DNA of 32,526 nt, from NCBI GenBank assembly GCA_900696625.1, contig CAADGU010000106.1, forward strand, positions 1 to 32,526, written 5' to 3'. Both the position numbers and the translations under genes were made by a program. Origin of the DNA: an uncultured Chloroflexota bacterium. Lineage in GTDB: Bacteria; Chloroflexota; Anaerolineae; Promineifilales; Promineifilaceae. Below the pieces are notes generated by a model. The model did no database searches, was not told the origin of the DNA, and was given only the letters and a program-made list of their open reading frames with translations. Positions within the stretch are counted from its first letter, which is position 1. The number at the start of each line of letters is the position of its first letter. This document shows positions 9,584 to 22,386 of the stretch, in pieces.

Positions 9584-9632
9584 TTTGTAGTAGCCGCTTC
9601 AGCGGGCAATCGGCTAAAGCTGTTGCTACGAA
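9584..9632. repeat. Double-hairpin dispersed element, copy 1
   Basis: TTTGTAGT at the left and GCTACGAA at the right enclose two small hairpins: CCGCT-tc-AGCGG and CGGCT-aa-AGCTG, the second with one G-T wobble. The inner sequence matches the copy at 22335-22386 closely, while the ends match both that copy and 11439-11494. No coding capacity. It resembles a REP/MITE-like element, with no transposase in the window. Confidence 0.7.
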
Positions 9633-9724
9633 TCCCACAAATTTAGTTTGTTGAGGTGCTGCATACAGCTATCAAACAATTTGATCGTTGATTATTCGTT
9701 TATGCTGTGTGACTGCCTGAGAAT

Positions 9725-11425
9725 TTACGCAAGGGAAGGGACTGTTACGTCCAGTAACAACCCCAATTGGGCCACGGCGGCGCGCAAGGATTCCCAATGA
9801 GCGGCGGGGATGGCTACGGCCAGATCGCCCAGGCTTTCGCCCAGATAGTCGCGGGTTTTGGGGTTGGCGCGTAGGGTGTCCAGGATGGCGGCGTCACGCA
9901 CACGGAGGATCACGGCCGTTTCCAACCGCCCTTCCATTCCCTTCTCACCCCAGCGCCCAATGCCCCGTTTGATGCTGGCAGGCAGCCCACCAGCCACATC
10001 TTCCAGGAATTGCACAATGCGCTCTGGGAAGATGCCCTGTTTTTGCGCCCGCGCCAGTGAGGTGGGCGTCAGCCGGTACTGGTACGGTTTGCCCGGCTGC
10101 GCAGGCAGCATCTCGCTGATGCGCCCCACCTGAAAGCGGTGGTAGCGGTTGGCGTTGCCCGGGGCCAGGATGATGGCGTCCGGCTGCACAATGAGCGGCG
10201 CAGGTACTTCATGGTTTTCGGCGGGTACGCCGTTGAGCCATTCCACGGCGCGGTCGGTGAGGGCGAAGGCGGGGTGGTTTTCGGGGACAATTGTGACCGC
10301 CAGCCCCAACCATACCAGCGGCGCCTCCACCAGATAGCGCAGCAGCCGCCCTTCCACCCGCTCCCAACTTTCAAAGCCGTTCAGGTATTGGTTGCTGGCC
10401 AGGTCACGCACATACCAGGTGTCATAATTGCCATCGGGGCGCTGAAAATCAGGGTCGTTGGTTTTAATGGTGGCCACCAGATCATCCAGGCGATACCATT
10501 CAGGGTCACGGGGCAGGGCATCCAGCAGGGCGGTGCGGGCCAGGATAGGGTCATTATGCCATTGGTCGCCTTCGCAGCGCAGGCCAGGGGTGCGGAGCAG
10601 TTCGTTCCAACTGCTGCTGCTCCACGCTTCGGCCAGGGCGCGCAGTTGGGTCTCGCGGCTGTTTTTGAGCCAGGTCACGGCCGTCGGCAACGGCCTTAGC
10701 CGATTCTCTTGCAGCGCCAACAGTCCCATCTCCGTCGCCAGGTTCAGCAGCAGCGAACGCCGTTCCGGGTGGGGGTTCAGTAAAAATCTGGTGGTCTCAT
10801 CCAGTTGCCCGGCCTGCAAACCATCTTGCTGCGCCAGGGTTATGAGCGTGGTCATGTCATCTACTGCGTCGGTGACATCGGGCGGCAGGGTGAGGCTGAG
10901 CGATAGGGGCAGCAGGGTTGGGATGGATTCAACGGTTGTGGTGGGGGTGGTGACCGCCTGGGCAGAGCCGGCCGCAGCCGTTGCACCCTTTTTTGCCGGT
11001 TTGGGGAATTGCGCCATTAACTCATCCGGCAGGTAGTAAAATTCAATAACGCCTTCAGCCGTTTCATCAAACCCCCGGTATAAAAAACCACGATACCACA
11101 ACGCTTCGGCGGCATTGGTCGGGTCAAACCAGGGTTCTTCCCGCTCCAGCCGCCCCGGCCCCATCAGGCGCACATCGCCAAAATCACGGGCAAAAGCGGC
11201 TACCGGCATCCGTCCGCCGGCCTGCACCAATGCCTGAATGCCGTTGGCTTCTTCCGGCGGTAGATAGCCAACTTCTTCCGGGAAATTCAACTGGCTCAGA
11301 GCAGCCGCCAACTCCTTCACGCAGGCGGCTTTGCCCGACCCGGTTAAATCCAGGTCCCACCATTCGCCAATCACGCGCAGGACAATCAGTTCGTGTTCTT
11401 GTAAAGCCTGAGTTAATGAATGCAT
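9725..11425 (-). CDS. Helicase-associated (XPB/Ssl2-like C-terminal) domain protein, no helicase core
   Basis: 566 residues. The C-terminal part contains IVQPDAIILAPGNANRYHRF, then YRLTPTSLARAQKQGI and a lineage of short winged-helix-like helices, which fits the Helicase_C_3 (XPB/Ssl2-like DNA-binding) family found in Actinobacteria and Chloroflexota. The N-terminus (LTQALQEHELIVLRVIGEWW) and middle (LNLATEMGLLALQ, WYRLDDLVATI) also look like winged-helix repeats. There is no Walker A or DEAD/DEAH box, so this is not a complete helicase; a DNA-binding or transcription/repair accessory role is inferred. A Thr/Val-rich linker lies near residues 148-166. ATG at 11425 has no clear SD. A perfect 20-bp hairpin element lies 18 bp upstream. 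It is unusually sparse in ACGGCCGT (two in 1.7 kb). Confidence 0.65.
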   Translation of the reverse strand: MHSLTQALQEHELIVLRVIGEWWDLDLTGSGKAACVKELAAALSQLNFPEEVGYLPPEEANGIQALVQAGGRMPVAAFARDFGDVRLMGPGRLEREEPWFDPTNAAEALWYRGFLYRGFDETAEGVIEFYYLPDELMAQFPKPAKKGATAAAGSAQAVTTPTTTVESIPTLLPLSLSLTLPPDVTDAVDDMTTLITLAQQDGLQAGQLDETTRFLLNPHPERRSLLLNLATEMGLLALQENRLRPLPTAVTWLKNSRETQLRALAEAWSSSSWNELLRTPGLRCEGDQWHNDPILARTALLDALPRDPEWYRLDDLVATIKTNDPDFQRPDGNYDTWYVRDLASNQYLNGFESWERVEGRLLRYLVEAPLVWLGLAVTIVPENHPAFALTDRAVEWLNGVPAENHEVPAPLIVQPDAIILAPGNANRYHRFQVGRISEMLPAQPGKPYQYRLTPTSLARAQKQGIFPERIVQFLEDVAGGLPASIKRGIGRWGEKGMEGRLETAVILRVRDAAILDTLRANPKTRDYLGESLGDLAVAIPAAHWESLRAAVAQLGLLLDVTVPSLA

Positions 11426-11438
11426 AGCTTGATGATTT

Positions 11439-11494
11439 GTTTGTAGTAGGCGATTTATCGCCTATTTATGGCGATAAATCGCCTACTACGAACA
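11439..11494. repeat. Double-hairpin dispersed element, copy 2 (perfect 20-bp stem)
   Basis: Bases 11443-11462 pair exactly with 11470-11489 across a 7-nt loop. Each arm is itself a small palindrome, GGCGAT-tt-ATCGCC and GGCGAT-aa-ATCGCC, so the DNA can fold as one long hairpin or as two hairpins on an outer stem. The outer ends TTTGTAGT and ACTACGAA match the copies at 9584 and 22335. It sits between the lipid-kinase stop and the helicase-associated start. Confidence 0.8.
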
Positions 11495-11500
11495 GTGTAT

Positions 11501-12406
11501 TTACACCATTACGTCAATGGCGGCCGGCAGGCTGACCACCGTCACCTGGCGCACGTTGTCTTTGGTGTAGGCAAACACTTCGCCATCGGTGTGGATGGGT
11601 ACGGGGCGGTCGGCGCGGACGGTGATGCGCCGGTTTTGCCGCAGCGCGATGGCTTTGTGGCTGCCATGTGTACCCTTTTTCACGCGCAGCAGCATCAGCA
11701 GCATCGTCAGGCGGCCCACCGGGCTAACCAGACAGGTGTCAATCAGATCGTCATCGTGGCGAGCATTGGGGGTGAGCAAAAAACCACCGCCGCCGCGTGG
11801 CCCCACGCCAAAGGCCAGAAACAGCGATTCCTGTTGTACGTGTTCTTCGTCAAAGCGTATGTCCAGGTAGGGTTTGTCGTAGTAGAAGGTGATGGTGCGC
11901 AGGGTGGCCAGCAGGTACATGGCAAAGCCATGAACGCGGGTGATGTTCTCAGCTTCGACGACAATGGTGGCGTCGAAGCCGATGCCCATGTTGTTGTCGA
12001 AGATGCGGTAACGGCCGTGATCATCCTCCACCCGCGCCAGATCAAGGGTGCGGGGCTGGCCGGTGAAGAGGGTTTTCACGGCCGTGCCCACATCACTCGA
12101 AATACCCAATGACCAGGCCAGATCGTTGCCGGAGCCAATGGGGATGATGCCCAACCGGGTGGTGGCTTTGTCGCCCAACACCAGCCCGTTGACCACATCG
12201 CTGATCGTACCGTCGCCGCCGGCGGCCGCGACCAGGTCGTAGCCTTCATTGGCGAATTGGCGGGCCAGTTCACGGCCGTGCCCCGGATATTCCGTCAGGG
12301 CAATTTCAATGCCGCCATAGGGCCGCGCGGCCGTTTCAATTAACGCCTGATACTGCCGCCCCCGGCCATTGTCTGCATAGGGATTTAAGATGACTTTTGC
12401 GCGCAT
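11501..12406 (-). CDS. Diacylglycerol kinase-catalytic-domain lipid kinase (YegS/BmrU/LCB5 type)
   Basis: 301 residues from ATG 12406, which gives the canonical opening MRAKVILNPYADNGRG; a TTG 24 bp upstream lies within an intergenic repeat and is rejected. The nucleotide-binding loop is A-GGDGT-ISDVVNGL (GGDGT at 63-67) and the second motif is GIIPIGSGNDLAWSLG (GSGND at 91-95), both diagnostic of DAGK catalytic domains. The C-terminal half carries the beta-sandwich lipid-binding region with a RGGGGFLLTPNA loop and DDDLIDTCLVSP. It probably phosphorylates diacylglycerol or a related lipid at the membrane, recycling lipid for phospholipid synthesis; substrate not decidable. There is no good SD. 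The upstream gap is a long imperfect inverted repeat. Confidence 0.9.
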   Translation of the reverse strand: MRAKVILNPYADNGRGRQYQALIETAARPYGGIEIALTEYPGHGRELARQFANEGYDLVAAAGGDGTISDVVNGLVLGDKATTRLGIIPIGSGNDLAWSLGISSDVGTAVKTLFTGQPRTLDLARVEDDHGRYRIFDNNMGIGFDATIVVEAENITRVHGFAMYLLATLRTITFYYDKPYLDIRFDEEHVQQESLFLAFGVGPRGGGGFLLTPNARHDDDLIDTCLVSPVGRLTMLLMLLRVKKGTHGSHKAIALRQNRRITVRADRPVPIHTDGEVFAYTKDNVRQVTVVSLPAAIDVMV

Positions 12407-12418
12407 GGGTTGTGTGGG

Positions 12419-12490
12419 GTAATTGGGCAATTAAGTAATTGGGTAATTGTCTGAGTTGCCAATTACTTAATCACTTAATTACCCAATTAC
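12419..12490. repeat. Imperfect intergenic inverted repeat of TAATTGGG/CCCAATTA units
   Basis: The gap between two minus-strand genes is made of TAATTGGG-like units on the left and complementary CCCAATTA-like units on the right, giving an imperfect stem of about 30 bp with its centre near 12450-12458. The outer 18 bp pair with one mismatch. The unit vocabulary recurs at 339-386 and 25473-25532. It could act as a processing or termination hairpin for the upstream gene; no T-tract follows on the minus strand. Confidence 0.6.
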
Positions 12491-12514
12491 TTTTTCCTCC
12501 AGGTTATTCTCCAC

Positions 12515-13183
12515 CTATTCTAACGCATCACGCATCACGGCCGTTGCCATATGTTCCAGGATTTCTTTTTCGCTGACCACGCCTTCAATGTGGACACGGC
12601 CGTTCAGCACGGTATGCGGCAGGTAGTGTACCGAATACCGCTCCACAATCACCGGGAACTGGTCGGCCATAATCACAAACACGCGCACCTGGGGGCTGGC
12701 GGCGGCCATATTCGTCAGCGGGTGAGCCATCATCACCCCGGCTTCATTGTCTGGGGCGGTGATCAGTTCGGCGCGAACTTCTTTTTCCAGTTTGCTCAGT
12801 TGGATGCGGGTCAGCGCCTCCGAGGTCATGCCGCGAAAAGAGGCAGCCTGGATAGCGGCAATGAGAATGGTCATGGCGTAACCATGCGGCAGGCCAATCA
12901 GGCGGATACCACAATCCTCGTGGGCAACGGCCGTGCCGCGCATGACGCCAATAACGGGCCAGTAATCATAATTTGGCTGGCGTGGGCGCTGCTCGCTGGA
13001 AATGGGGTCAAAATGGTCGGCCAACGTCTGGCACAGCCGCATCGCTTCCGCTTCCCTGAGGCTGCTTTCATCTCCCCAAACTACCAGGTGTACCGGTTCC
13101 GGCAAATGGGCCAGCAGCGCCGGTAACTGCGCCCACGTTTCTTCGTCAAAAGGAAGGTCAGATTCGTTTGTTGATTGCGTCAT
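12515..13183 (-). CDS. Redox-inactive PDO/AhpF-N-like protein with two thioredoxin folds
   Basis: 222 residues. The order of elements matches protein disulfide oxidoreductase / AhpF N-terminal proteins: fold 1 (about 28-118; VHLVVWGDE, LADHFDPIS, then a GLPHGYAMTILIAAI helix) and fold 2 (about 136-212; ITAPDNEAG, QFPVIVERYSVHYLPHTVLNGRVHIEGVVSE). In active homologues fold 2 begins with a CPYC-like motif at the site that here reads PDNEAG, while the cis-Pro loop (YLPHTV) and the NG-x5-G turn are intact. Fold 1 also lacks CxxC. It is therefore predicted to be a structural or regulatory homologue without disulfide chemistry. The last residues (VMRDALE) and the stop are encoded by GTGATGC heptamers (12525-12538). 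No SD is visible before ATG 13183. Confidence 0.6.
   Translation of the reverse strand: MTQSTNESDLPFDEETWAQLPALLAHLPEPVHLVVWGDESSLREAEAMRLCQTLADHFDPISSEQRPRQPNYDYWPVIGVMRGTAVAHEDCGIRLIGLPHGYAMTILIAAIQAASFRGMTSEALTRIQLSKLEKEVRAELITAPDNEAGVMMAHPLTNMAAASPQVRVFVIMADQFPVIVERYSVHYLPHTVLNGRVHIEGVVSEKEILEHMATAVMRDALE
12525..12538. repeat. Two GCATCAC heptamers inside the 3' end of the PDO-like gene
   Basis: Two exact tandem 7-mers (12525-12531, 12532-12538), running directly into an ACGGCCGT octamer (12537-12544). The same unit, read as GTGATGC on the other strand, recurs at 18139, 19269, 22539, 28497 and 31145. Here it is translated as the C-terminal tail of the protein. Confidence 0.6.
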
Positions 13184-13196
13184 ATCGTGTTGTGGT

Positions 13197-13223
13197 GTGG
13201 GGCGATTTGGAAAATCGCGCTAC
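13197..13223. repeat. Half-copy of the TTTGTAG double-hairpin element
   Basis: Read on the minus strand: TTTGTAG, then GCGATTT-tcc-AAATCGC, i.e. the left end and one hairpin of the dispersed family without the second hairpin or right end. Its TTTGTAG provides the TAG stop of the glycosyltransferase gene. A related GATTTTCC-AAATC stretch lies in the gap near 2250-2265. Confidence 0.5.
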
Positions 13224-14548
13224 AAATTGGGCAGCATATACCGGTAAAGCGCCACCAGATCGAGCAGGACAAGGGCCAGTCCTAACCCGACGGGCAGCAG
13301 ATAAGGCAGGTGAGGCTGGCGCACTTTTTCGGCCAGGATCACGACCCAGGCGCCCAGGCCAACGGCCGTGCCCAACATCAAAGGAATGAGCGCCGGAAAC
13401 AGATACCGCCCCTGGTGCTGTACAAAGGTCAGATTGTAACCCACATACAAGACCACCGTAAACAAGGTCAGCAGCGCCAGGATGGTGAATTGCAGATTGG
13501 AAATGGGCAGGCGGCGCAGCCAGCGTTGCGATGCGCCGGGGGAAGCAGGCCAGACAAAGGGCGCTAACAAGAAGCCGATCACGGCCGTGACCACCAACAG
13601 CAACAACAAGCCAACTATTCGCGGCGGCATGGGCACGGCCATCCAGCCAAACTGCCCCCAAAAGCTGTTGAACGTCGTTTGCAAAAAGCGCGTCACCGTG
13701 CCACCCAGACCATATTGGGTGATCCATTCGGCCGTGCGAATCTGGCCCACCACCACTGCGTCATGGCGCGTTTTACCCAGAATGTCCAGGCCGCCATACA
13801 CCACCAGATTCCGCCCCCACCACAGCGCCCCCAACAAAAACGCCGGGGCAAACACACGCAGCCCATCCCGAACGATTTGCCCCCACTGCCGCCACTTTTG
13901 CCAGACAAGGGCAACGGCAATCACCGGGGCCATCAGATAAACCGTGCCTTTGGTGAGGAAACCTAAACCCAGCAGCAGCCCCAGCCACCAGAGCAAACGG
14001 GATGTTTCCGGCTGCTGGGTCCATTTGAGCAGCAGCAGCAGCAGCGCGGCGATGAGCAATTCGGCCAGGGCGTCATTATTGGCGGAAGCCATTATGTGCA
14101 GGTGTTGGGGGAGGAAGGCGACCAGCACGGCCGTACTCCAACCCACCCACGCTTGCTGCGGCAGCAGCAGCCGGGCGACAGCGTAAGCGAGTACCACCAC
14201 GCCGGCCCCCAACACCAGCGACAGCAGCCGCATGGACACCAGCGACCCACCTGTAAACAGGAAAACAGGCGTTTGCAGCAGGTAATACAGCGGCGGCTGC
14301 CAATCTTCATACGTGATGGGGCTGATGTCATATTCAGGTGCAAAGCGGGAACTAACCACTTCGTTGCGGTACAGTTCGTCGTAGTCGCTCCATTCCATGA
14401 CGGGTAAACGGCCGTCGGCCAACTGCCGCACATAGTTATAATGCGCCGGTTCGTCGGGGCTTTGCCAGGCCGGGGTTTGCCGGGCATACAAAATGCCCAG
14501 CCCAAAATAAGTGATGACAATGATGAGTAACGGTATACTCTTGTGCAT
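13220..14548 (-). CDS. GT-C-fold membrane glycosyltransferase-like protein
   Basis: 442 residues from ATG 14548 (a GTG six bases upstream is the alternative). About ten hydrophobic segments run along the protein. The first extracytoplasmic loop carries QSPDEPAHYNYVRQLADG and, further on, YEDWQPPLYYLL: the D-E pair and W-Q-P-P-L-Y-Y motif are typical of DUF2142/PMT/ArnT-like GT-C enzymes that transfer sugars from polyprenyl-phosphate donors at the outer membrane leaflet. A Leu-rich run (LLLLLL, from CAG repeats at 14028-14045) is part of a TM helix. The C-terminus is a final TM followed by YRYMLPNL. The stop codon comes from a repeat half-element. No SD; a TAGAAT (14562-14557) ending 8 nt before ATG suggests a leaderless mRNA. 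Substrate unknown. Confidence 0.8.
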   Translation of the reverse strand: MHKSIPLLIIVITYFGLGILYARQTPAWQSPDEPAHYNYVRQLADGRLPVMEWSDYDELYRNEVVSSRFAPEYDISPITYEDWQPPLYYLLQTPVFLFTGGSLVSMRLLSLVLGAGVVVLAYAVARLLLPQQAWVGWSTAVLVAFLPQHLHIMASANNDALAELLIAALLLLLLKWTQQPETSRLLWWLGLLLGLGFLTKGTVYLMAPVIAVALVWQKWRQWGQIVRDGLRVFAPAFLLGALWWGRNLVVYGGLDILGKTRHDAVVVGQIRTAEWITQYGLGGTVTRFLQTTFNSFWGQFGWMAVPMPPRIVGLLLLLVVTAVIGFLLAPFVWPASPGASQRWLRRLPISNLQFTILALLTLFTVVLYVGYNLTFVQHQGRYLFPALIPLMLGTAVGLGAWVVILAEKVRQPHLPYLLPVGLGLALVLLDLVALYRYMLPNL

Positions 14549-14562
14549 GGGCACGGATTCTA
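14534..14562. promoter_or_regulatory. Interlocked divergent start region with opposed -10-like boxes
   Basis: The kinase ATG (plus, 14547-14549) and the glycosyltransferase ATG (minus, 14548-14546) share one CATG at 14546-14549. TATACT (plus, 14534-14539) ends 7 nt before the kinase ATG, and TAGAAT (minus, 14562-14557) ends 8 nt before the other ATG. Neither gene has an SD. Each putative promoter therefore lies within the other gene's 5' coding region. -35 matches are poor (3 of 6 each), so this is a motif-level hypothesis. Confidence 0.35.
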
Positions 14563-17500
14563 ACCCATTTAGCCTGATGAATCATTCGGCGCGTTCTAAA
14601 CTGTTTACCTATGCGGCGGCGGCGTTCTTGATGTTGATAGCCCGATTGCTGCTGATGGTGGTGGCCTGGCAGCCACCGGCGGCGATGCATGTGTTGTGGG
14701 CTTTTGCCAGCGTCAATCTGGCGTTGTTTGTGGCTGTGTTGGCCCTGGCCCGTTTTTACACCCGCCGGGATGCGGTCTATTTGTTTATCGGCATTGGTTA
14801 TGTGGGTGTTGGTTTGTTGGGCGCGTATTATCTGGCGTTGCTGTGGTGGTCATTAACCGGGGGCACGGCCACGCCGCAACTGGGCGTATGGCAGACGGCG
14901 GCTGTTTTTCTGGCGATATTTTTGGCAGGAAGCTGGCTGATATGGCTGCGCACCGAAAAATGGCAGCAGGTGAAATGGCCGGTGTGGGTGGGGGGCACGG
15001 CCGTGCTGTTGTTGAATGTGGCCTATTTTGCCATCGTTCCCGAATTGGCCGGTATTACCAGATTTGCCGGTGGACATCTGGCAACGGCCGTTGCCGCCAC
15101 CTTTTTCCTCATCGCCCTCCTGGGTTATCTACAAAAAAACCAATGGCGCACCGACGCCTTTGAACACTCCCTCATCCTGGCGTTGGTCATCATTTATACC
15201 AGCCAGCTTTTGTTTCTAGCCTTTGCCGATAATTTCTTCGATGCCCTGGCTGTGGTTGCCCTCATGGCCCAGGCCGTCAGTTACCTGGTTGTGCTGTTAG
15301 GGCTGCTCATCAGCATCATCTCCATCTTTCGCCAGGCGGAAATGATGGCGGCTGCCCAGGCCGAGGCCAACGAGACCCTGCAACGCGAAATCGGCGAGCG
15401 CAAACGTATTGAAGCCGCCGAGAATGAACAACGCCAGCTGGCTGAAGCCCTACGTGAAGTGGGCAATGCTTTAAGTTCAGTATTGGATTTTGACCGGCTG
15501 CTGGATATTTTGCTCGACCAGATGGCGCGTGTGCTGCCCTACGATACGGCCAACGTCATGTTGGTGCATGGCGATGAAATTGAAATTGGCGTCACCCGCG
15601 GTTATGGGAAGGATATCCGCCCCGGCGCGCCGCAGCGGTTCCATGTGGGGCGTATGCCCAGCTTGCAGCAGTTGTTACATACAGGAGAACCGGTTATTGT
15701 GCCGGACACGGCCGTGTCTGACTTCTGGGTGAATCCCCATGAATCGCCGCACGTCCGTTCCTGGGCCGGCGCGCCCATCAGCATCAAAGGCGATGTCATT
15801 GCCATCCTGGCTCTCAATAACAGCCACCCCGGTTTTTACCAACCAGAAGCGGCGGCCCGCCTTTCTGCCTTTGCCGGGCAAGCCGGTGTCGCCTTTGAAA
15901 ACGCCCGTCTTTACGAGCAAGTGCGGCAGCGCGTCGCCGAACTGGCTACCCTCAACACTATCAGCCAGGCCATCTCCTCCACCCTGGATTTGCCGGAAAC
16001 GTTGACGGTGATCACCGAAAGCACCGTGCGTCTGCTGCGTGTGGAAGCCGCCTCGGTGGTTTTGCTAGACCCGGCTGCGGGCGACATGATGTTTGCCGCC
16101 GCTTCGGGGCAGGCAGCCACCTTTGTCAAAGGGCAGCGGCTGGCTTTTGGGCAAGGGGTCATTGGGTGGGTGGTGCAAAATGGTGAACCGGTATTGGTGC
16201 CAGATACCGAACATGACACCCGTTACTTTAGTGATTTTGATGAAAAAAGCGGGTTTGTGGCCCGTTCAATTTTGTGTGTACCCTTGCAAGCCAAAGGGCA
16301 AACAATCGGCGCCCTGGAAGCCATTAACAAAGAAGATGGTTTCTTTGCTGAAGAAGATTTGGAACTGCTCATGCGCCTGACCGCACCGGCGGCCACCGCC
16401 ATTGAAAATGCCCGGCTTTTTGCCCAGGCGCAGCAGGAAATTGCCGAACGGGCGCGGGTAGAAATGGCCCTGGAGGCCGAACGCTCATTGTTGGCGCGGC
16501 GTGTGGCCGAGCGCACCGCCGATCTCAGCGCCGCCAATGCCGAACTGGCCCATGCCGCCCGCCTCAAGGATGAATTCCTGGCCAGCATGAGCCATGAACT
16601 GCGCACGCCGCTGAACGCCGTTCTGGGTATTTCGGAGGCGTTGCAGGAAGAGGTGTATGGGCCGCTGAATGAAAACCAGATTATGTCGCTGCGCAGCATT
16701 GAAGAGAGTGGGCGGCATTTGCTGGCGCTGATCAACGATATTTTGGACCTGTCCAAAATTGAAGCGGGCAAGTTGGAGCTAGAATTGACGGCAGCGCCGG
16801 TGGAGATGATTTGCCAGGCCAGTTTGCGCATCATCAAACAAAATGCCCACAAGAAGCGGCTGACCATTCATTCTTCTTTTGACGGCGCGGTGACGACCAT
16901 TCAGGCGGATGAACGGCGCTTGAAGCAGATATTGGTCAATTTGCTGGCTAATGCGGTGAAGTTTACGCCGGAGGGCGGCAAAATCGGTCTGGAGGTGGTG
17001 GGCGACACGGCCGTTGGCGTGGTGCATATCACAGTGTGGGATACGGGCATTGGCATTGCCGAAGAGGATATGGCGCGGCTGTTTCAGCCGTTTGTGCAGC
17101 TAGACAGCCGCCTGGCGCGGGAGTATGGCGGCACGGGCCTGGGCCTGTCTCTGGTGCAGCGGATGATGGATTTACATGGGGGAACCGTTGCCGTTGAAAG
17201 CGAAGTGGGCAAAGGCAGCCGCTTTATCATTTCCTTCCCCTGGCAGCAGGGGGAGCGGCCGGTATTGCCGTTGGCGCAGGCGCAGCAGACAGATGGCGGT
17301 TTGGGCCGGCTATTTCGGCTGGCGCTGGTGGTGGATGATTCCCCGGCGGCGGTGGCGCAGTTGAAGCGCTATTTCCATGAATTGCACGTGGATGTGGTAT
17401 CGCTGCCAGCGGGGGATGAGGTGGTGGCGAAAGCGGCGCTGATTCGGCCCGATGTGATTGTGCTGGACATTTTACTGCCGGATATTTCTGGTTGGGAGGT

Positions 17501-18128
17501 GCTGTCCCGTTTGAAGGCTGATCCTCAAACGCGGCATGTACCGGTGATTATTGCCTCGGTGATGGATGAACGAGAAAACGCGCTGGCGGTGGGGGCGGCT
17601 GATTGTTTGCTGAAGCCGGTGACGCGCCAACAACTGCGCCAGGCTTTGCAGCGATTGATGATGCAGGTGAACCGGGTGCAGACACGGCCGTTCCCCCCGC
17701 CGGTACCTTCAGATTTACCAGACTCCTCGCCGCCCGCCGCCCGCCGCCGTATTTTGTTGGCCGAGGATAATGCGGCCAACATCCATGCCTTTTCAAATTA
17801 CCTGGCGGCCAAAGGGTATGATATGATGGTGGTGCATAACGGCCGTGACGCCGTTGACCGGGCCAAACAGGAAATCCCAGACCTTATCCTCATGGATATT
17901 CAAATGCCCCACATGAATGGCCTGGATGCGATTCGGGAAATCCGGGCTGAGGCCAGCTTAAGGCAGGTGCCCATTATCGCCGTGACGGCGCTGGCGATGC
18001 CCGGCGACCAGGAAAAATGCCTGGCTGCCGGCGCCAACGATTACCTGAGCAAACCGGTCAGTTTGAAAGAGTTGTTGGAACGTATTGAGTTGCAGTTAGC
18101 AGGTACTCAAGCGTCACGCATTACGTGA
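14547..18128 (+). CDS. Membrane-bound hybrid sensor histidine kinase (8 TM, GAF-GAF-HisKA-HATPase-REC-REC)
   Basis: 1193 residues from ATG 14547; ATG 14577 would also leave every domain intact. Eight hydrophobic helices fill about 19-258, followed by a coiled coil (ANETLQREIGERKRIEAAE). Two GAF domains follow (about 310-458 and 465-632; second with FGQGVIGWVVQNGEPVLVPD). The HisKA phospho-acceptor is H683 in FLASMSHELRTPLN, and the HATPase has N-box LVNLLANAVKF, G1 DTGIGI and G2 GGTGLGLSL. Two receivers follow: REC1 with D974 (VIVLDILLPD) and REC2 with D1117 (LILMDIQMPH). It senses an unknown signal through the membrane or GAF modules and passes phosphate His to Asp internally. The last residues (ASRIT) and TGA are written by the repeat that starts the next gap. 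The following receiver-kinase gene is the likely partner. Confidence 0.93.
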   Translation: MGTDSNPFSLMNHSARSKLFTYAAAAFLMLIARLLLMVVAWQPPAAMHVLWAFASVNLALFVAVLALARFYTRRDAVYLFIGIGYVGVGLLGAYYLALLWWSLTGGTATPQLGVWQTAAVFLAIFLAGSWLIWLRTEKWQQVKWPVWVGGTAVLLLNVAYFAIVPELAGITRFAGGHLATAVAATFFLIALLGYLQKNQWRTDAFEHSLILALVIIYTSQLLFLAFADNFFDALAVVALMAQAVSYLVVLLGLLISIISIFRQAEMMAAAQAEANETLQREIGERKRIEAAENEQRQLAEALREVGNALSSVLDFDRLLDILLDQMARVLPYDTANVMLVHGDEIEIGVTRGYGKDIRPGAPQRFHVGRMPSLQQLLHTGEPVIVPDTAVSDFWVNPHESPHVRSWAGAPISIKGDVIAILALNNSHPGFYQPEAAARLSAFAGQAGVAFENARLYEQVRQRVAELATLNTISQAISSTLDLPETLTVITESTVRLLRVEAASVVLLDPAAGDMMFAAASGQAATFVKGQRLAFGQGVIGWVVQNGEPVLVPDTEHDTRYFSDFDEKSGFVARSILCVPLQAKGQTIGALEAINKEDGFFAEEDLELLMRLTAPAATAIENARLFAQAQQEIAERARVEMALEAERSLLARRVAERTADLSAANAELAHAARLKDEFLASMSHELRTPLNAVLGISEALQEEVYGPLNENQIMSLRSIEESGRHLLALINDILDLSKIEAGKLELELTAAPVEMICQASLRIIKQNAHKKRLTIHSSFDGAVTTIQADERRLKQILVNLLANAVKFTPEGGKIGLEVVGDTAVGVVHITVWDTGIGIAEEDMARLFQPFVQLDSRLAREYGGTGLGLSLVQRMMDLHGGTVAVESEVGKGSRFIISFPWQQGERPVLPLAQAQQTDGGLGRLFRLALVVDDSPAAVAQLKRYFHELHVDVVSLPAGDEVVAKAALIRPDVIVLDILLPDISGWEVLSRLKADPQTRHVPVIIASVMDERENALAVGAADCLLKPVTRQQLRQALQRLMMQVNRVQTRPFPPPVPSDLPDSSPPAARRRILLAEDNAANIHAFSNYLAAKGYDMMVVHNGRDAVDRAKQEIPDLILMDIQMPHMNGLDAIREIRAEASLRQVPIIAVTALAMPGDQEKCLAAGANDYLSKPVSLKELLERIELQLAGTQASRIT

Positions 18129-18159
18129 TATGTGACGAGTGATGCGTGACGTGTGAATA
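18125..18159. repeat. Five GTGAxxx heptamers between kinase genes
   Basis: Contiguous units GTGATAT, GTGACGA, GTGATGC, GTGACGT, GTGAATA (18125-18159), immediately followed by the GGAGAGG Shine-Dalgarno of the next gene. The first unit supplies the TGA stop of the hybrid kinase. Confidence 0.8.
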
Positions 18160-18171
18160 GGAGAGGTTGCC

Positions 18172-19263
18172 ATTAACGAGATACCCCAAATTCTCATTGT
18201 GGATGATGAACCCAGTGCGCGGCAGACGATGGAAATGCTGCTGCTGCGCGAAGGTTATGACCTGGCGTTTGCCGCCGATGGCTATGAGGCGCTGGCGCAT
18301 CTGGATGAAGAGTCGGCTGACGTTATTTTGCTGGATGTGATGATGCCGGGCATGGATGGTTTTGAACTGTGTGAACGGCTGCGCCGTAATCCCAAATGGC
18401 AGCATGTGCCCATTATTTTGGTGACGGCGCTGGACAGCAAACAAGATTTGGCGCGGGGGTTGGAGGCGGGCGCCGATGACTTTTTGCATAAGCCATACAA
18501 CGGGTTGGAACTGCGGGCGCGGGTGCGTTCGATGCTGCGCATTAAACAGCGGCACGATGAACTGCAAACGGCGCTGCAACTGCGGCAAGACCTCTCCAAT
18601 ATGATTGTGCATGATATTCGCAGCCCGCTCTCGGCAATCCTGATTTCTTGTGATTTGTTGGAAATGGAAGTGGGCGCCGCTTCTATGCCCCTGTCTACTA
18701 TTCGCGGCGAAGCGGCGCGGTTGAGTAGTTTTCTGACGGATATGCTGATGATGGCGAAGATGGAACACGGCCGTCTCATGCTGGCCCGTTCGGAAGTGGA
18801 TATGAATGAATTGGTCACGGCCGTGCGCGACAGTTTTGTGCCCATGGCCGGGTTGAAAGACATTTCATTTGTTACCCATTTGCCGCCGCAGACGTGTAAA
18901 TTGACGGTGGATGCCAGTCTGTGGCGGCGTGTGCTAGATAATTTGCTCACCAACGCCATTAAATTTTCGCCGACCGGTGGGCAGATTACGCTGCGTTTGA
19001 GCTACCCGGAACAGGAGGCGGCATCGGACGTGGTGGCCGGTACACGGCTGCGGCTGGAAGTGATGGATGAGGGGCCGGGTATTCCCGAAGAACATCGGGA
19101 AACGATTTTTGACAAGTTTAAGATTGTGGCTGCCAAACGGCGCGATGTGGCCCAAGTGGGGTTGGGGCTGGCTTTTTGCAAGATGGTGGTGGAGGCGCAC
19201 GACGGCCGTATTCACATGACGCCGAATACACCACGTGGTTCCATATTTGTTATTGAATTATGA
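18172..19263 (+). CDS. Receiver-histidine kinase (REC-HisKA-HATPase)
   Basis: 363 residues if it starts at ATT 18172, which follows GGAGAGG by 5 nt and keeps the first receiver strand (PQILIVDDEPS). The first GTG (18199) would delete beta-1, and the frame opens only after TGA 18154, with no ATG/GTG/TTG between. So either a rare ATT start is used or a single base differs from ATG here. The receiver phospho-site is D55 (VILLDVMMPGMDG) with the K-P loop at HKPYNG. HisKA has H147 in NMIVHDIRSPLSAI, and HATPase has NLLTNAIKFSP, DEGPGIPEEH and VGLGLAFCKMV. There are no TM segments; cytoplasmic. A receiver in front of a kinase suits relays in which another kinase, here the upstream hybrid, controls it. 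Confidence 0.9.
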   Translation: MNEIPQILIVDDEPSARQTMEMLLLREGYDLAFAADGYEALAHLDEESADVILLDVMMPGMDGFELCERLRRNPKWQHVPIILVTALDSKQDLARGLEAGADDFLHKPYNGLELRARVRSMLRIKQRHDELQTALQLRQDLSNMIVHDIRSPLSAILISCDLLEMEVGAASMPLSTIRGEAARLSSFLTDMLMMAKMEHGRLMLARSEVDMNELVTAVRDSFVPMAGLKDISFVTHLPPQTCKLTVDASLWRRVLDNLLTNAIKFSPTGGQITLRLSYPEQEAASDVVAGTRLRLEVMDEGPGIPEEHRETIFDKFKIVAAKRRDVAQVGLGLAFCKMVVEAHDGRIHMTPNTPRGSIFVIEL

Positions 19264-19268
19264 CTGGC

Positions 19269-19303
19269 GTGATGCGTGACGAGTGACGAGTGACGAGTGA
19301 TGC
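19269..19303. repeat. Five GTGAxxx heptamers before the esterase gene
   Basis: Units GTGATGC, GTGACGA, GTGACGA, GTGACGA, GTGATGC at exact 7-bp spacing from 19269 to 19303. The array fills nearly the whole gap between the receiver-kinase stop (19261-19263) and the esterase ATG (19307). Confidence 0.85.
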
Positions 19304-19306
19304 TGT

Positions 19307-20206
19307 ATGGATTGGATTTCACCATTGTCATTAACGGCCGTCCTGCTGGCGGGGGTGGGTGTGGCCTGGTGGCGACGCCGGCGGCGGTTGCATACCCTTC
19401 TGGCCACTGTCGAGGTTATTACTGTGCCCGATTTCTATTCGCATCATCTGGAAAATGCACGGCCGTTACACGTTTACCTGCCGCCCCATTACCACCACAC
19501 CGACCAGACCTACAAACTGCTGCTCGTCAACGACGGCCAGGATAGGGAGGCGCTTCATTTGCGGCAAACAGTAGCCACGCTCTATGCCCGCCGCCAGATG
19601 GAACCGCTGGTGGTGGTGGCGATCCCGACGAATGAGGAGCGGTTGGCGGAGTATGGCACGGCCGTTGCCGCCAACGCGCGCGGCCTGGGCAGCAAAGCGG
19701 CGCTGTATGCCTTGTTTGTGACCGAAGAACTGCTGCCCTTTGTGCGGGAAAATTTCCGGGTGAGTGAGCGGGTAGCCGACACAGCAATTTTAGGCGCATC
19801 GTTGGGTGGTTTATCGGCGTTTGATATAGCCTGGAACTTCCCCGATGAGTTTGGCATGGTGGGCGTGATGTCTGGCTCCTTCTGGTGGCAGGCGGCCGAT
19901 GATGAAACCAGCATTGAACCGGGCGAACGCATTGCCCACAGTCTGGTGCGGCAGGGGCCAAAACGCGAGGGCCAACGCTTCTGGTTTGAGGCGGCTACGC
20001 AGGATGAATTTGAAGACCGCGACCAGGACGGCGTCATAGACGCCATTCAAGACACACTGGAATTGATAGACGAACTGGAAAAGCTGGGTTACCGGCGGGG
20101 CCAGGATGTGGTGTATGTGGAAATGCCCGGCGGCCGTCACAATTACGACACCTGGGCGCGGGCGCTGCCCAAATTCTTGGGGTGGGCTTTCCCGGCCCAA
20201 AGCTAA
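19307..20206 (+). CDS. Membrane-anchored esterase D / enterochelin-esterase-like hydrolase
   Basis: 299 residues. An N-terminal hydrophobic segment (8-22) followed by WWRRRRR predicts a single membrane anchor, probably N-out given the basic residues after it. The catalytic domain (about 36-295) is an alpha/beta hydrolase of the putative-esterase (PF00756-like) family: RPLHVYLPPHY, LLLVNDGQD, the nucleophile elbow G163-A-S165-L-G-G and a C-terminal H278 in GGRHNYDTWARALP. An insert at about 237-245 reads DRDQDGVID, an EF-hand-type DxDxDG loop that probably binds calcium and carries the region where the acid residue is expected. Substrate unknown (an acyl ester). No SD is visible, since the upstream gap is a heptamer array. 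It converges on the methyltransferase gene. Confidence 0.8.
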   Translation: MDWISPLSLTAVLLAGVGVAWWRRRRRLHTLLATVEVITVPDFYSHHLENARPLHVYLPPHYHHTDQTYKLLLVNDGQDREALHLRQTVATLYARRQMEPLVVVAIPTNEERLAEYGTAVAANARGLGSKAALYALFVTEELLPFVRENFRVSERVADTAILGASLGGLSAFDIAWNFPDEFGMVGVMSGSFWWQAADDETSIEPGERIAHSLVRQGPKREGQRFWFEAATQDEFEDRDQDGVIDAIQDTLELIDELEKLGYRRGQDVVYVEMPGGRHNYDTWARALPKFLGWAFPAQS

Positions 20207-20317
20207 ATCTCTCAACAGCAATTCTCAATTTGCCCCCAACCTGCCGTAGGGGTGGGGCGGCGCGGGTTCCGTCTGGGCAAAGCATGGGGCCTTGTGGGGC
20301 CTTGTCTCCGCGCCGTC

Positions 20318-21097
20318 TCACCCAAACCTGCCCAAATGGGGCGAGACATATAGTTCGGTGGTGTAGAGGACGGTGACACGGCCGTCCACCTGATATTTGT
20401 CAAACAGTTTGCGTAAAGCCGCCAGCATCGGTTCATAGTGGGGATGTCCAGTCAACGGCATCATTGAAGAGGAGAGGGTGCGCCCTTCCAGCCCGGCATA
20501 ATCAAACTGCTGCACATTCACAAAAGAGCGAAATTGGTGAGAATCACCCAGAATAAACTCCGGCCCGCGTTCGTGCCCACCTTCGCGGCGCGGCCGTCCC
20601 GTGTCATCCCGTGCATACGCCACCAGAATCCGCTCATACGCCCGCATGAAATCAGAGCCATCTACGTGCCGCGTGTTCCAGACCAGGGCGATGTGGCCGC
20701 CCGGCTTCAAGATGCGCTGCCATTCGGCGCGGGTGGGTTCAGGCGCAAACCAGTGGGCGGCCTGCCCGGCCACCACAAAATCTACGCTGTGATCGGGCAG
20801 GGTGGTGGCTTCGGCCGTGCCGTTGACGCTGGTGAAGTGGGGGTAATCGGCCAAAAACCCTTCACCCGCCGTCCGCATCTCGGCATTGGGTTCCACGCCG
20901 TAAACGGGGTTGCCATTGTCCAGAAAGAGGCGGGTGAGCAGGCCGGTGCCGGAACCGATGTCGGCGACGACGGCCGTCTCCGCCAACCCCCATTCATCAC
21001 GCAGGCAGGCGAGTACGGCCGTAGGGTAGCTGGGCCGGTATCTGGCGTAATGGGTCACACGGTCAGAAAAACGTTGGGTGGGGGCGTGGTTGGTCAT
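20318..21097 (-). CDS. Class I SAM-dependent methyltransferase
   Basis: 259 residues. The SAM-binding motif I is VADIGSGTGLLTRLF (about 44-58), followed by GVEPNAEMR (motif II acidic residue), the SVDFVVAGQAAHWF segment and ILKPGGHIALVWNTR, all in the order of the Methyltransf_11/25 family. The N-terminus RFSDRVTHYARYRPSYP is the form seen in UbiE/tam-like enzymes with unknown small-molecule substrates. Cytoplasmic, no TM. The start at 21097 has only a weak upstream AGGA. It is followed on its strand by 111 bp before the convergent esterase end, holding a tandem GGGGCCTTGT pair (20286-20305) and little else. Confidence 0.88.
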   Translation of the reverse strand: MTNHAPTQRFSDRVTHYARYRPSYPTAVLACLRDEWGLAETAVVADIGSGTGLLTRLFLDNGNPVYGVEPNAEMRTAGEGFLADYPHFTSVNGTAEATTLPDHSVDFVVAGQAAHWFAPEPTRAEWQRILKPGGHIALVWNTRHVDGSDFMRAYERILVAYARDDTGRPRREGGHERGPEFILGDSHQFRSFVNVQQFDYAGLEGRTLSSSMMPLTGHPHYEPMLAALRKLFDKYQVDGRVTVLYTTELYVSPHLGRFG

Positions 21098-21114
21098 CAG
21101 GCGGATCCTGTTTG

Positions 21115-21166
21115 TTGAGATTGAGAGATTGAGAGATCTAATCTCCTAATCTCCCAATCTCTTGAT
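21115..21166. repeat. Octamer-type intergenic inverted repeat
   Basis: Left side GAGATT/GAGAGATT units (21117-21137) pair with AATCTC-rich units (21141-21161) across a 3-nt loop, 18 of 21 positions. It fills the gap between the methyltransferase start and the asnA stop. It has the same design as the other array gaps but an 8-bp period. Confidence 0.65.
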
Positions 21167-21181
21167 TTCCTGCATTCTACC

Positions 21182-22312
21182 CTATTCCAACACAAAGATG
21201 TTCTTCTTCGCCCCCATCTCTTTCAAAATTTTGGGCCAGACGGTGACGCTGACTTCGCCCAGGTGTGCTTTGCGCAGCAGCAGCATGATGGTGCGTGATT
21301 GCCCAATGCCCCCGCCGATGCTCAGCGGGATCTCGTCGTTCAGAATCGCCTTGTGATAGGGCAGGTTTAAGAATTCAAGCTGCCCGGTCATTTCCAACTG
21401 CTGTACCAGAGTGCGTTTGTTCACGCGGATGCCCATGGAGGAAAGCTCATGACGGCGGCGCGTGACCGGATTCCAGACCAGGATATCGCCATTCAAGCCA
21501 TGCATGGGACGGCCGTCCTCCGAGATCGTCGGCGTCACCCAATCATCATAATCGGCGGCGCGCAGTTCATGCGGGTAGCCATCGCGCAGCGTCCAGCCAA
21601 TGCCATAGATGAAGACGGCGGGGAATTCTTGCAGCACGGCCGTTTCCCGCTGTTTGCGCGGCAGGTTGGGGAACATGTCCAGAATATCCTCGGCATGCAA
21701 AAAGGTCAGTTCATCGGGCAGATCGGGGTAACGGTCATCACGTAACTTGGGAAACAGCCCCTGCACATAACTTTCCGCGCCTTTGATCACCTTCCAGATT
21801 TTGGTGACAACGGCCGTCAGAAATTCCAGATTGCGCTGGTCTTCCGTAATGGTGCGCTCCCAATCCCACTGGTCTACATAGGCGCTGTGGTCGTGGTCCA
21901 GGAAATAATCCTTGCGCACGGCGCGCATATCGGTGAGCAGCCCCTCGCCCGGCTGCATGTCAAACTGTTTCAGCGCCATGCGTTTCCACTTGGTCGCCGC
22001 CTGCACCACTTCCGCATCAACGGGGTGCTGATCGTAATCATTGCTGATGTGGAAACGCACCGGGGTGCGCGAGCCATCCCGATCCAGATAATCGTTGACG
22101 CCGCTGTCCACATCCACAATCAACGGCACCTCGACCATCATCAGGTTTAATTCTTTGCACAGGTTCTGTTCAATGTATTGTTTGGCGGCGTAAATCGCCT
22201 GTTGGGTTTCTTTGGGCGTCAGCGAGGAACGGTAATCATCCGGCAGGACGTGCCACAGATCATCATAATTGCCAATGCCCGGCCCGGCCAAATCTGCAAC
22301 CTTGTTAAGCAT
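21182..22312 (-). CDS. asnA: Aspartate-ammonia ligase (asparagine synthetase A)
   Basis: 376 residues; ATG at 22312 preceded by AAGGAG 8-9 nt upstream. Class-II-synthetase-like AsnA signatures run through the protein: VEVPLIVDVDSGVNDYLD near the start, RFHISNDYDQHPVDAEVVQAATKWKR, LTDMRAVRKDYFLDHDHSAYVDQWDWE, and near the C-terminus LSIGGGIGQSRTIMLLLRKAHLGEV. It makes asparagine from aspartate, ammonia and ATP via an aspartyl-adenylate. It is somewhat longer than the roughly 330-residue enterobacterial enzyme; the extra length is spread through insertions rather than added as a domain. Its 5' flank carries a double-hairpin element (22335-22386) just beyond the SD. No riboswitch or regulator site was recognised. 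Confidence 0.95.
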   Translation of the reverse strand: MLNKVADLAGPGIGNYDDLWHVLPDDYRSSLTPKETQQAIYAAKQYIEQNLCKELNLMMVEVPLIVDVDSGVNDYLDRDGSRTPVRFHISNDYDQHPVDAEVVQAATKWKRMALKQFDMQPGEGLLTDMRAVRKDYFLDHDHSAYVDQWDWERTITEDQRNLEFLTAVVTKIWKVIKGAESYVQGLFPKLRDDRYPDLPDELTFLHAEDILDMFPNLPRKQRETAVLQEFPAVFIYGIGWTLRDGYPHELRAADYDDWVTPTISEDGRPMHGLNGDILVWNPVTRRRHELSSMGIRVNKRTLVQQLEMTGQLEFLNLPYHKAILNDEIPLSIGGGIGQSRTIMLLLRKAHLGEVSVTVWPKILKEMGAKKNIFVLE

Positions 22313-22334
22313 GATCTTTTCTCCTTGTTGGGTG

Positions 22335-22386
22335 TTTGTAGTGACCGCTTGAGCGGGAAGAGCCGGCTAAAGCCGTTACTACGAAC
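22335..22386. repeat. Double-hairpin dispersed element, copy 3
   Basis: TTTGTAGT and ACTACGAA ends enclose CCGCT-tg-AGCGG and CGGCT-aa-AGCCG, joined by a short GAAGAG linker. It is the best-formed copy with the CCGCT/CGGCT type of inner hairpins. It lies 9 nt beyond the asnA SD, so it falls in the asnA leader or promoter region. Confidence 0.75.

Follow-up and report, generated by a model that had tools for sequence, protein, structure and literature searches.

The usual description of REP-associated tyrosine transposases (RAYTs) is that of domesticated transposases, inherited vertically and residing in one genome together with their repeats, the repetitive extragenic palindromes (REPs). Biochemical work on TnpA-REP has shown that the enzyme binds the folded single-stranded REP and that GTAG is needed for cleavage (PMC8266576), and GTAG palindromic repeats are known in Chloroflexi (Thermomicrobium roseum GTAG-23) as well as in Cyanobacteria (PMC3733652). 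Here we analyzed a 32.5-kb stretch of DNA (the window; about 57% G+C) from an uncultured bacterium of the Promineifilaceae (Chloroflexota), whose genome, G000, is a draft metagenome-assembled genome (MAG) of 6.95 Mb in 641 contigs. The window contains three copies of a dispersed palindromic element, and we consider it very likely that these elements are REP doublets forming hairpins (REPINs), that is, non-autonomous mobile DNA composed of two inverted GTAG-type REP units and mobilised by a RAYT encoded elsewhere. They would form a new family of the known GTAG REP, or REPIN-RAYT, kind, although this family may be identical with one of GTAG-1 to GTAG-24. Its unusual features are that it is shared across phyla, that stems are exchanged while GTAGTR and TTYA stay fixed, and that it is positioned in short intercistronic gaps.

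Direct reading of the sequence shows that the copies at 9584, 11440 and 22335 each consist of one unit present twice, as a head-to-head (inverted) REP doublet. The unit is laid out as GTTYGTAGTR, a 6-bp stem, a 2-nt TY loop and the returning stem; a linker follows, and then the unit on the opposite strand. The canonical REPIN, at 11439..11493, reads G-TTTGTAGTAGGCGATTTATCGCC-TATTTAT-GGCGATAAATCGCCTACTACGAA-C, with units at 11440-11462 (+) and 11470-11492 (-) on either side of a 7-nt linker (11463-11469), and 11440-11492 is a near-perfect 23-bp inverted repeat. Because an extra, outermost G...C pair frames 73 of the 74 doublets having a 7-nt linker, placing the ends one base further out on each side, the canonical element measures 55 bp. 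The doublet at 9584..9632 (TTTGTAGTAGCCGCTTCAGCGGGCAATCGGCTAAAGCTGTTGCTACGAA) is partly degenerate, with a left unit at 9584-9606 (+), a right unit at 9610-9632 (-), and stems of the GCCGCT and ACAGCT/ACGGCT types. The third, at 22334..22386, is a hetero-doublet in which an ACCGCT unit (22335-22357, +) is separated by a 5-nt linker from an ACGGCT unit (22363-22385, -). All three are intergenic. The three-copy palindromic architecture reported at these coordinates in an earlier note on the window is therefore real, each copy being an inverted doublet. However, the separate AA loop that it assigned to the second hairpin is simply how the unit's TT loop reads on the opposite strand, and the asymmetry of TTT and TTC ends that it used was an artefact of the chosen motif: other members of the genus show CT (23), CC (17) and TT (8). 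A polarity of the element with TTT on the left and TTC on the right was dropped, all combinations being found elsewhere in the genus.

Copies of the element are abundant in the genome, and not by chance. The pattern TTTGTAGTN{20,50}ACTACGAA has 40 matches in G000 and none for the reversed control, and the commonest unit, TTYGTAGTRGGCGATTYATCGCC, is present in 172 exact copies, again against none for the control. (Copy numbers were taken from exact-pattern counts, the RNA-model census having covered the best 150 scored candidates per genome.) Exact matches to TTYGTAGTRGGCGATTYATCGCC number 144, 114, 119 and 131 in the congeners G002, G003, G004 and G005, respectively, whereas the congener G001, which is 97% complete, has none and the remaining genomes of the family have 0-3. 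A second stem class, ACSGCT, to which the 9584 and 22335 doublets belong, is represented by 16 copies in G000 and by 7-24 in G002-G005; in other genera, for example in G012, G020 and G023, it predominates. The pattern GTAGTAGGCGATTN{2,8}AATCGCC gave no matches, because it demanded a longer loop than the 2 nt of the family. Thus, the repeats show the marks of GTAG-type REPs: an unpaired GTAG at the end of the palindrome, high copy number, an intergenic position, and a stem that is kept as structure. They also show the mark of REPINs, since the repeated entity is an inverted doublet with a fixed internal distance. Head-to-head doublets account for 64 of 73 units in G000 and for 96 of 116 in the congeners; the linker is exactly 7 nt in 27 of 32 and 41 of 48 doublets, respectively, and in 68 of 80 sampled doublets overall. 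A base-pairing rule within the 7-nt linker was dropped, as all three pairs were found in only 1 of 74. Hetero-doublets, which combine two differing stems, make up 15 of the 32 in G000.

The stems vary by compensation. In an alignment of 35 distinct units (A1), 94.3% of stem cells are paired, compared with 69.5% after shuffling; two-sided changes occur in 41 cells versus 12.7 in shuffles, the covariation score is 0.585 versus 0.192, and slid controls collapse. A second alignment of 19 units (A2), nearly all taken from beside RAYT genes of the clade described below, has all 114 of its 114 cells paired, with 33 two-sided changes versus 9.1 in shuffles. GTAG is invariant in both alignments. In A2, moreover, GTAGT, the top T-A pair and the TY loop are invariant apart from the Y, while five stem pairs vary, and the stem class tracks the RAYT clade. 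The proposal that structure rather than sequence is conserved thus applies to the five stem pairs, but not to GTAGTR and the TTYA apex, which are both fixed. Similarly, a fold into two mini-hairpins is the best one for the 9584 doublet, whereas a single long hairpin is the optimum for the homodimer at 11440; this long hairpin is not the required form, because hetero-doublets join different stems. Further copies throughout the genome and compensatory changes in their stems, both of which the earlier note had proposed to look for, were found, and the compensatory signal is strong.

A candidate for the mobilising enzyme came from a scan of public genomes with the common 23-mer, statements on which cover the matches listed. 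Candidatus Parabeggiatoa sp. nov. 2 contains many copies of the 23-mer, and one of its contigs has a RAYT open reading frame (ORF) between copies. The product of this ORF matches NCBIfam NF047646 (REP_Tyr_transpos) at 81.6 bits, the cut-off being 80; the PDB search with the RAYT returned TnpA-REP (4er8) as its sole match (E 6e-7), with the HUH and Tyr motifs aligned; and the motifs of the clade are NHYH, WY and YIHYNP. As judged from profile, PDB match and motifs, the linked gene is a HUH/Y1 RAYT of the TnpA-REP type. Relatives that are 58-61% identical are encoded by G022, G023, G043 and G004 (the G004 copy is cut by a contig end), pieces are present in G005 and G018, and G002 has a piece at a contig edge. 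Family doublets abut the gene in G022, G023, G043 and G004, and still do so in the case of the broken gene in G005; a RAYT flanked by matching REPs, a further mark of REPINs, is therefore found in these four genomes, in decayed form in G005, and in Parabeggiatoa. The clade also has more distant members in other Chloroflexota: L283-L285, L287 and L288 have flanking units of the form GTAGTR-6 bp-TY-6 bp with stems CCGCCT, CCGACT and ACGACT; no family-like units were found near L286 or the more divergent L280. The Parabeggiatoa RAYT (L175 444-1610) is fused in frame to a C-terminal Uma2-type nuclease domain (PF05685, 50.9 bits).

A Y1 transposase of the TnpA_REP type, which the earlier note had also named as something to search for, is thus present and flanked by family doublets, but in relatives, none being detected in G000. 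In G000, Pfam Y1_Tnp is matched only by one RAYT (L011/L097) and, weakly, by a 392-aa protein (L012). The former was set aside as the cognate enzyme since it carries its own GGAG-TTCGCACGCCCACGTGCGAA repeats, and the latter because of the weakness of its Y1 match. Proteins of the L012 type, of about 390 aa, are conserved in many genomes of the family, and may be domesticated relatives or false matches. The genus has further RAYT genes (L082, L085, L086, L087, L090, L091, L092, L096, L097), most of them with their own flanking palindromes, many of which have GGAG in place of GTAG.

The scan also showed that the 23-mer extends beyond Chloroflexota. Among the matches listed, it is present in Parabeggiatoa, Thiomargarita, Anaerolineales HSG24/HSG25 and other Chloroflexi MAGs, with single copies in two Cyanobacteria. 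Since the same unit and the same RAYT clade occur in Candidatus Parabeggiatoa, a member of the Gammaproteobacteria, transfer between phyla, in either direction, is the simplest reading. Stray Chloroflexota contigs in the Parabeggiatoa assembly are an unlikely explanation, because the sampled Parabeggiatoa loci have 40-45% G+C, well apart from the value of the window, and dozens of contigs carry units. In the RAYT tree, Parabeggiatoa groups with G004 only (89/92, which is short of the starred level); the GGCGAT stem is common to the two. The 153 Parabeggiatoa units are mostly single or arranged in head-to-tail rows (51 head-to-tail neighbours and 11 doublets), as opposed to the 7-nt doublets of Chloroflexota. 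One match to the 23-mer (L282) was obtained among the viral contigs searched (IMG/VR), and no close RAYT was found on plasmids; the viral and plasmid searches thus identified no transfer vector. Gene exchange among filamentous gliding bacteria of differing phyla has been proposed earlier (PMC6390638). On balance, we favour the view that the whole REP/RAYT pair crossed between Chloroflexota and Beggiatoaceae, which are giant sulfur bacteria, and spread again in the recipient, this time as head-to-tail units in tandem rather than as 55-bp doublets, with the RAYT reading only GTAGTR and the TTYA cap while the five lower stem pairs drift by compensation.

How might the doublets move? The RAYT would recognise GTAGTR together with a short TTYA-capped hairpin on single-stranded DNA, a candidate substrate of the G022/G023 enzyme being 5'-GTTTGTAGTAGGCGATTTATCGCC-3'. 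It would then cut and rejoin, copying or moving the whole doublet into new intergenic sites; strand transfer would spread the doublet, and, going by TnpA-REP biochemistry, GTAG would be required for cleavage. Binding and cleavage of the unit and movement of the doublet by the RAYT are predicted by analogy, and we infer mobilisation itself. The doublets are probably transcribed, and insertions just upstream of ribosome-binding sites may be tolerated, or selected as transcribed hairpins.

Comparison of sites among congeners, another of the proposed checks, revealed both occupied and empty ones. G002 carries the 11440 doublet, and the orthologous gap is empty in G005 and G001. No target duplication is visible at the 11440 site relative to the empty site. 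The suggestion of a REP/MITE-like element or a structured RNA is therefore upheld as to REP; the defining traits of miniature inverted-repeat transposable elements (MITEs), namely terminal inverted repeats of a DDE transposon and a target site duplication, do not apply, the linked transposase being of the HUH/Y1 type, and a structured RNA is not needed.

Several points weigh against the interpretation as REPINs mobilised by this RAYT clade. Firstly, a search with the Parabeggiatoa RAYT gave no match of this clade in the draft MAG G000, and in G003, also a draft MAG, as well as in the repeat-free G001, only distant matches (27-34%) were obtained; the lack in G003 counts here. Secondly, RAYT and repeats do co-occur, which speaks for their link: pieces of at least 50% identity were found in 7 of the 17 genomes that have either repeat class, as against 0 of the 35 that have neither (Fisher p = 1.5e-4). 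However, 10 REP-bearing genomes of the family are left without a detectable cognate RAYT, and the test ignores the kinship of the genomes. Thirdly, an empty site records gain or loss, leaving the mechanism aside, and at the 9584 locus of G004 the element is absent but the surrounding ~100 bp differs too, so that more than the doublet may have changed there. Finally, the activity of the RAYT is a prediction from its sequence. Non-detection in G000 and G003 may be an effect of assembly, because contigs of draft MAGs such as these two tend to break at genes flanked by repeats; the family in G000 is probably a relic, or else its RAYT lies in an assembly gap.

The position of the doublets bears on an alternative explanation, namely that they are cis-acting intercistronic RNA structures (translation insulators, or elements of mRNA processing or stability) that are under selection, and that their mobility is only historical. 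Placement was determined for 23 G000 doublets, from loci fetched for two end-motif patterns, using a simple home-made gene caller with approximate starts. Eighteen of the 23 lie between co-directional genes, and 15 are located in residual gaps of at most 40 nt, which make up 6% of intergenic bases (p 2e-13); the gaps are typically ~25 nt. Doublets mostly precede the next start codon by 16-22 nt, typically about 17 nt, and in many cases a sequence resembling a Shine-Dalgarno motif lies in between; they follow the stop at 5-24 nt. Five doublets were called inside genes: four of these are located at the 5' end of called ORFs that probably start further downstream, and the fifth is at a contig end. 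REPs within reach of stop codons reportedly affect translation, according to Liang et al. 2015 (as cited in PMC12306157). This positioning, and the persistence of the 172 intact copies in G000 although the cognate RAYT is undetected there, would suit selected RNA structures. However, the elements are absent from the congener G001 and from orthologous sites of close relatives, they are linked to the RAYT and co-occur with it, and much of their placement is explained by purifying selection removing insertions that hit genes or Shine-Dalgarno sequences; the placement figures, moreover, depend on the home-made caller and on doublets with certain end motifs. We therefore regard this explanation as unlikely.

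We consider it very improbable that mobilisation of the doublets is the work of the other Y1 enzyme of the genus, an IS200-like TnpA encoded beside a HAD-hydrolase gene (L083, L084, L089, L094). Its gene is present in G002-G005 and absent from the repeat-free G001, and the arrays upstream of it carry TTTGTAGGTGCAGTTTYAACTGC units, which match the layout TTTGTAG-2 nt-6 bp-TT/TC-6 bp. Yet the enzyme is classed as an IS200/IS605 transposase (NF033573) and not as a RAYT, its flanks contain no GGCGAT or ACSGCT doublets and none on both sides, its synteny is fixed, and the gene is lost or missing in the repeat-rich G000, whereas the RAYT described above has exact family doublets on its flanks. The upstream arrays (L084 1500-2050) are tandem ~118-bp arrays containing GTAG and other hairpins, and their unit is dispersed in the genus. 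The G000 contigs C474 and C231 (L143, L144) share an overlap of exactly 127 nt, located where the missing IS200-like tnpA has its stop codon; this looks like the end of an assembly-graph branch, and strains with and without tnpA may coexist. Palindromes that are intergenic and often close to stops would also suit intrinsic terminators acting in both directions, or a transcription-factor operator that chance and selection have dispersed, but such an origin is hardly credible: the hairpins are not followed by a T-tract, the majority of the sampled sites have co-directional genes on either side and a start codon right behind them, the stems vary while GTAGTR is fixed, and the elements are linked to a RAYT.

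Within the window, the 11440 doublet separates two genes on the minus strand: an ORF of 566 aa (9725..11425), the start codon of which the doublet precedes by 14 nt, and an ORF of 309 aa (11501..12430; diacylglycerol/lipid-kinase-like by eye), whose stop is ~8 nt away. The 22335 doublet is located 22 nt upstream of the ATG at 22312 of a minus-strand ORF of 376 aa (21182..22312; aspartate-ammonia ligase-like by eye). The sequence at 13197-13223, previously taken for a half-copy, belongs to another GTAG family, of which it is a single REP (13201..13226, minus strand; TTTGTAG-C-GCGATTT-TCC-AAATCGC, with a 7-bp stem and a 3-nt loop). It is kept at the same position in G002-G005, and REPs of its type flank RAYT L096 in G005. 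The octamer ACGGCCGT, an over-represented, HIP1-like palindrome, occurs 79 times in the window, and an AT-rich dyad, TAATTGGGCAATTAAGTAATTGGG..., is located between two genes at 12417-12492 and has relatives elsewhere in G000.

Having one RAYT clade that can be traced over 12 loci in several lineages together with its flanking repeats amounts to a natural mutagenesis series, which separates the bases that never change (GTAGTR, TTYA) from those that merely covary. The presence of a common 23-mer and RAYT clade in two phyla makes the transfer of a repeat/transposase pair directly testable, and the crowding of doublets in ~25-nt co-directional gaps before ribosome-binding sites predicts measurable effects on the expression of downstream genes.

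The REPINs and RAYTs of Pseudomonas fluorescens SBW25 (Bertels and Rainey 2011, PMC3116915) share with the present family the inverted doublets, the fixed internal distance, the conserved outer ends and the compensatory changes, as well as the intergenic position and a neighbouring RAYT gene. They differ in REP sequence and RAYT lineage; the GI doublet of SBW25 is longer, its 16-mers starting 71 bp apart, compared with a 55-bp element and a 7-nt linker here; and, unlike in SBW25, several stem classes are combined within one doublet. With the GTAG-1 to GTAG-24 families (PMC3733652), our family has in common GTAG at one end, a stem within the range of 5-13 bp, a TY loop, head-to-head dimers, heterodimers, and alternative complementary stem residues. 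Published uni-REPs lie near the upstream stop at varying distances from the downstream ORF (PMC3733652), whereas both distances are short in most of the cases sampled here. The RAYTs resemble TnpA-REP subclass 2.8 (PMC6006769) in the NHYH HUH motif, W[YH], the YIHYNP tyrosine motif, a proline-containing N-terminus, flanking GTAG REPs and a sporadic distribution across phyla, although that subclass is described from Cyanobacteria with long REPs, and the present enzymes, assigned to it by motif only, come from Chloroflexota and Beggiatoaceae and are accompanied by short REPs with 6-bp stems. Finally, the bacterial interspersed mosaic elements (BIMEs) and TnpA-REP of E. coli (PMC8266576; PDB 4er8) likewise combine inverted intergenic GTAG REPs with a single-copy HUH Y1 transposase; the E. 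coli REPs are long and contain a bulge, whereas the units described here are short, perfect palindromes like group 3 REPs.

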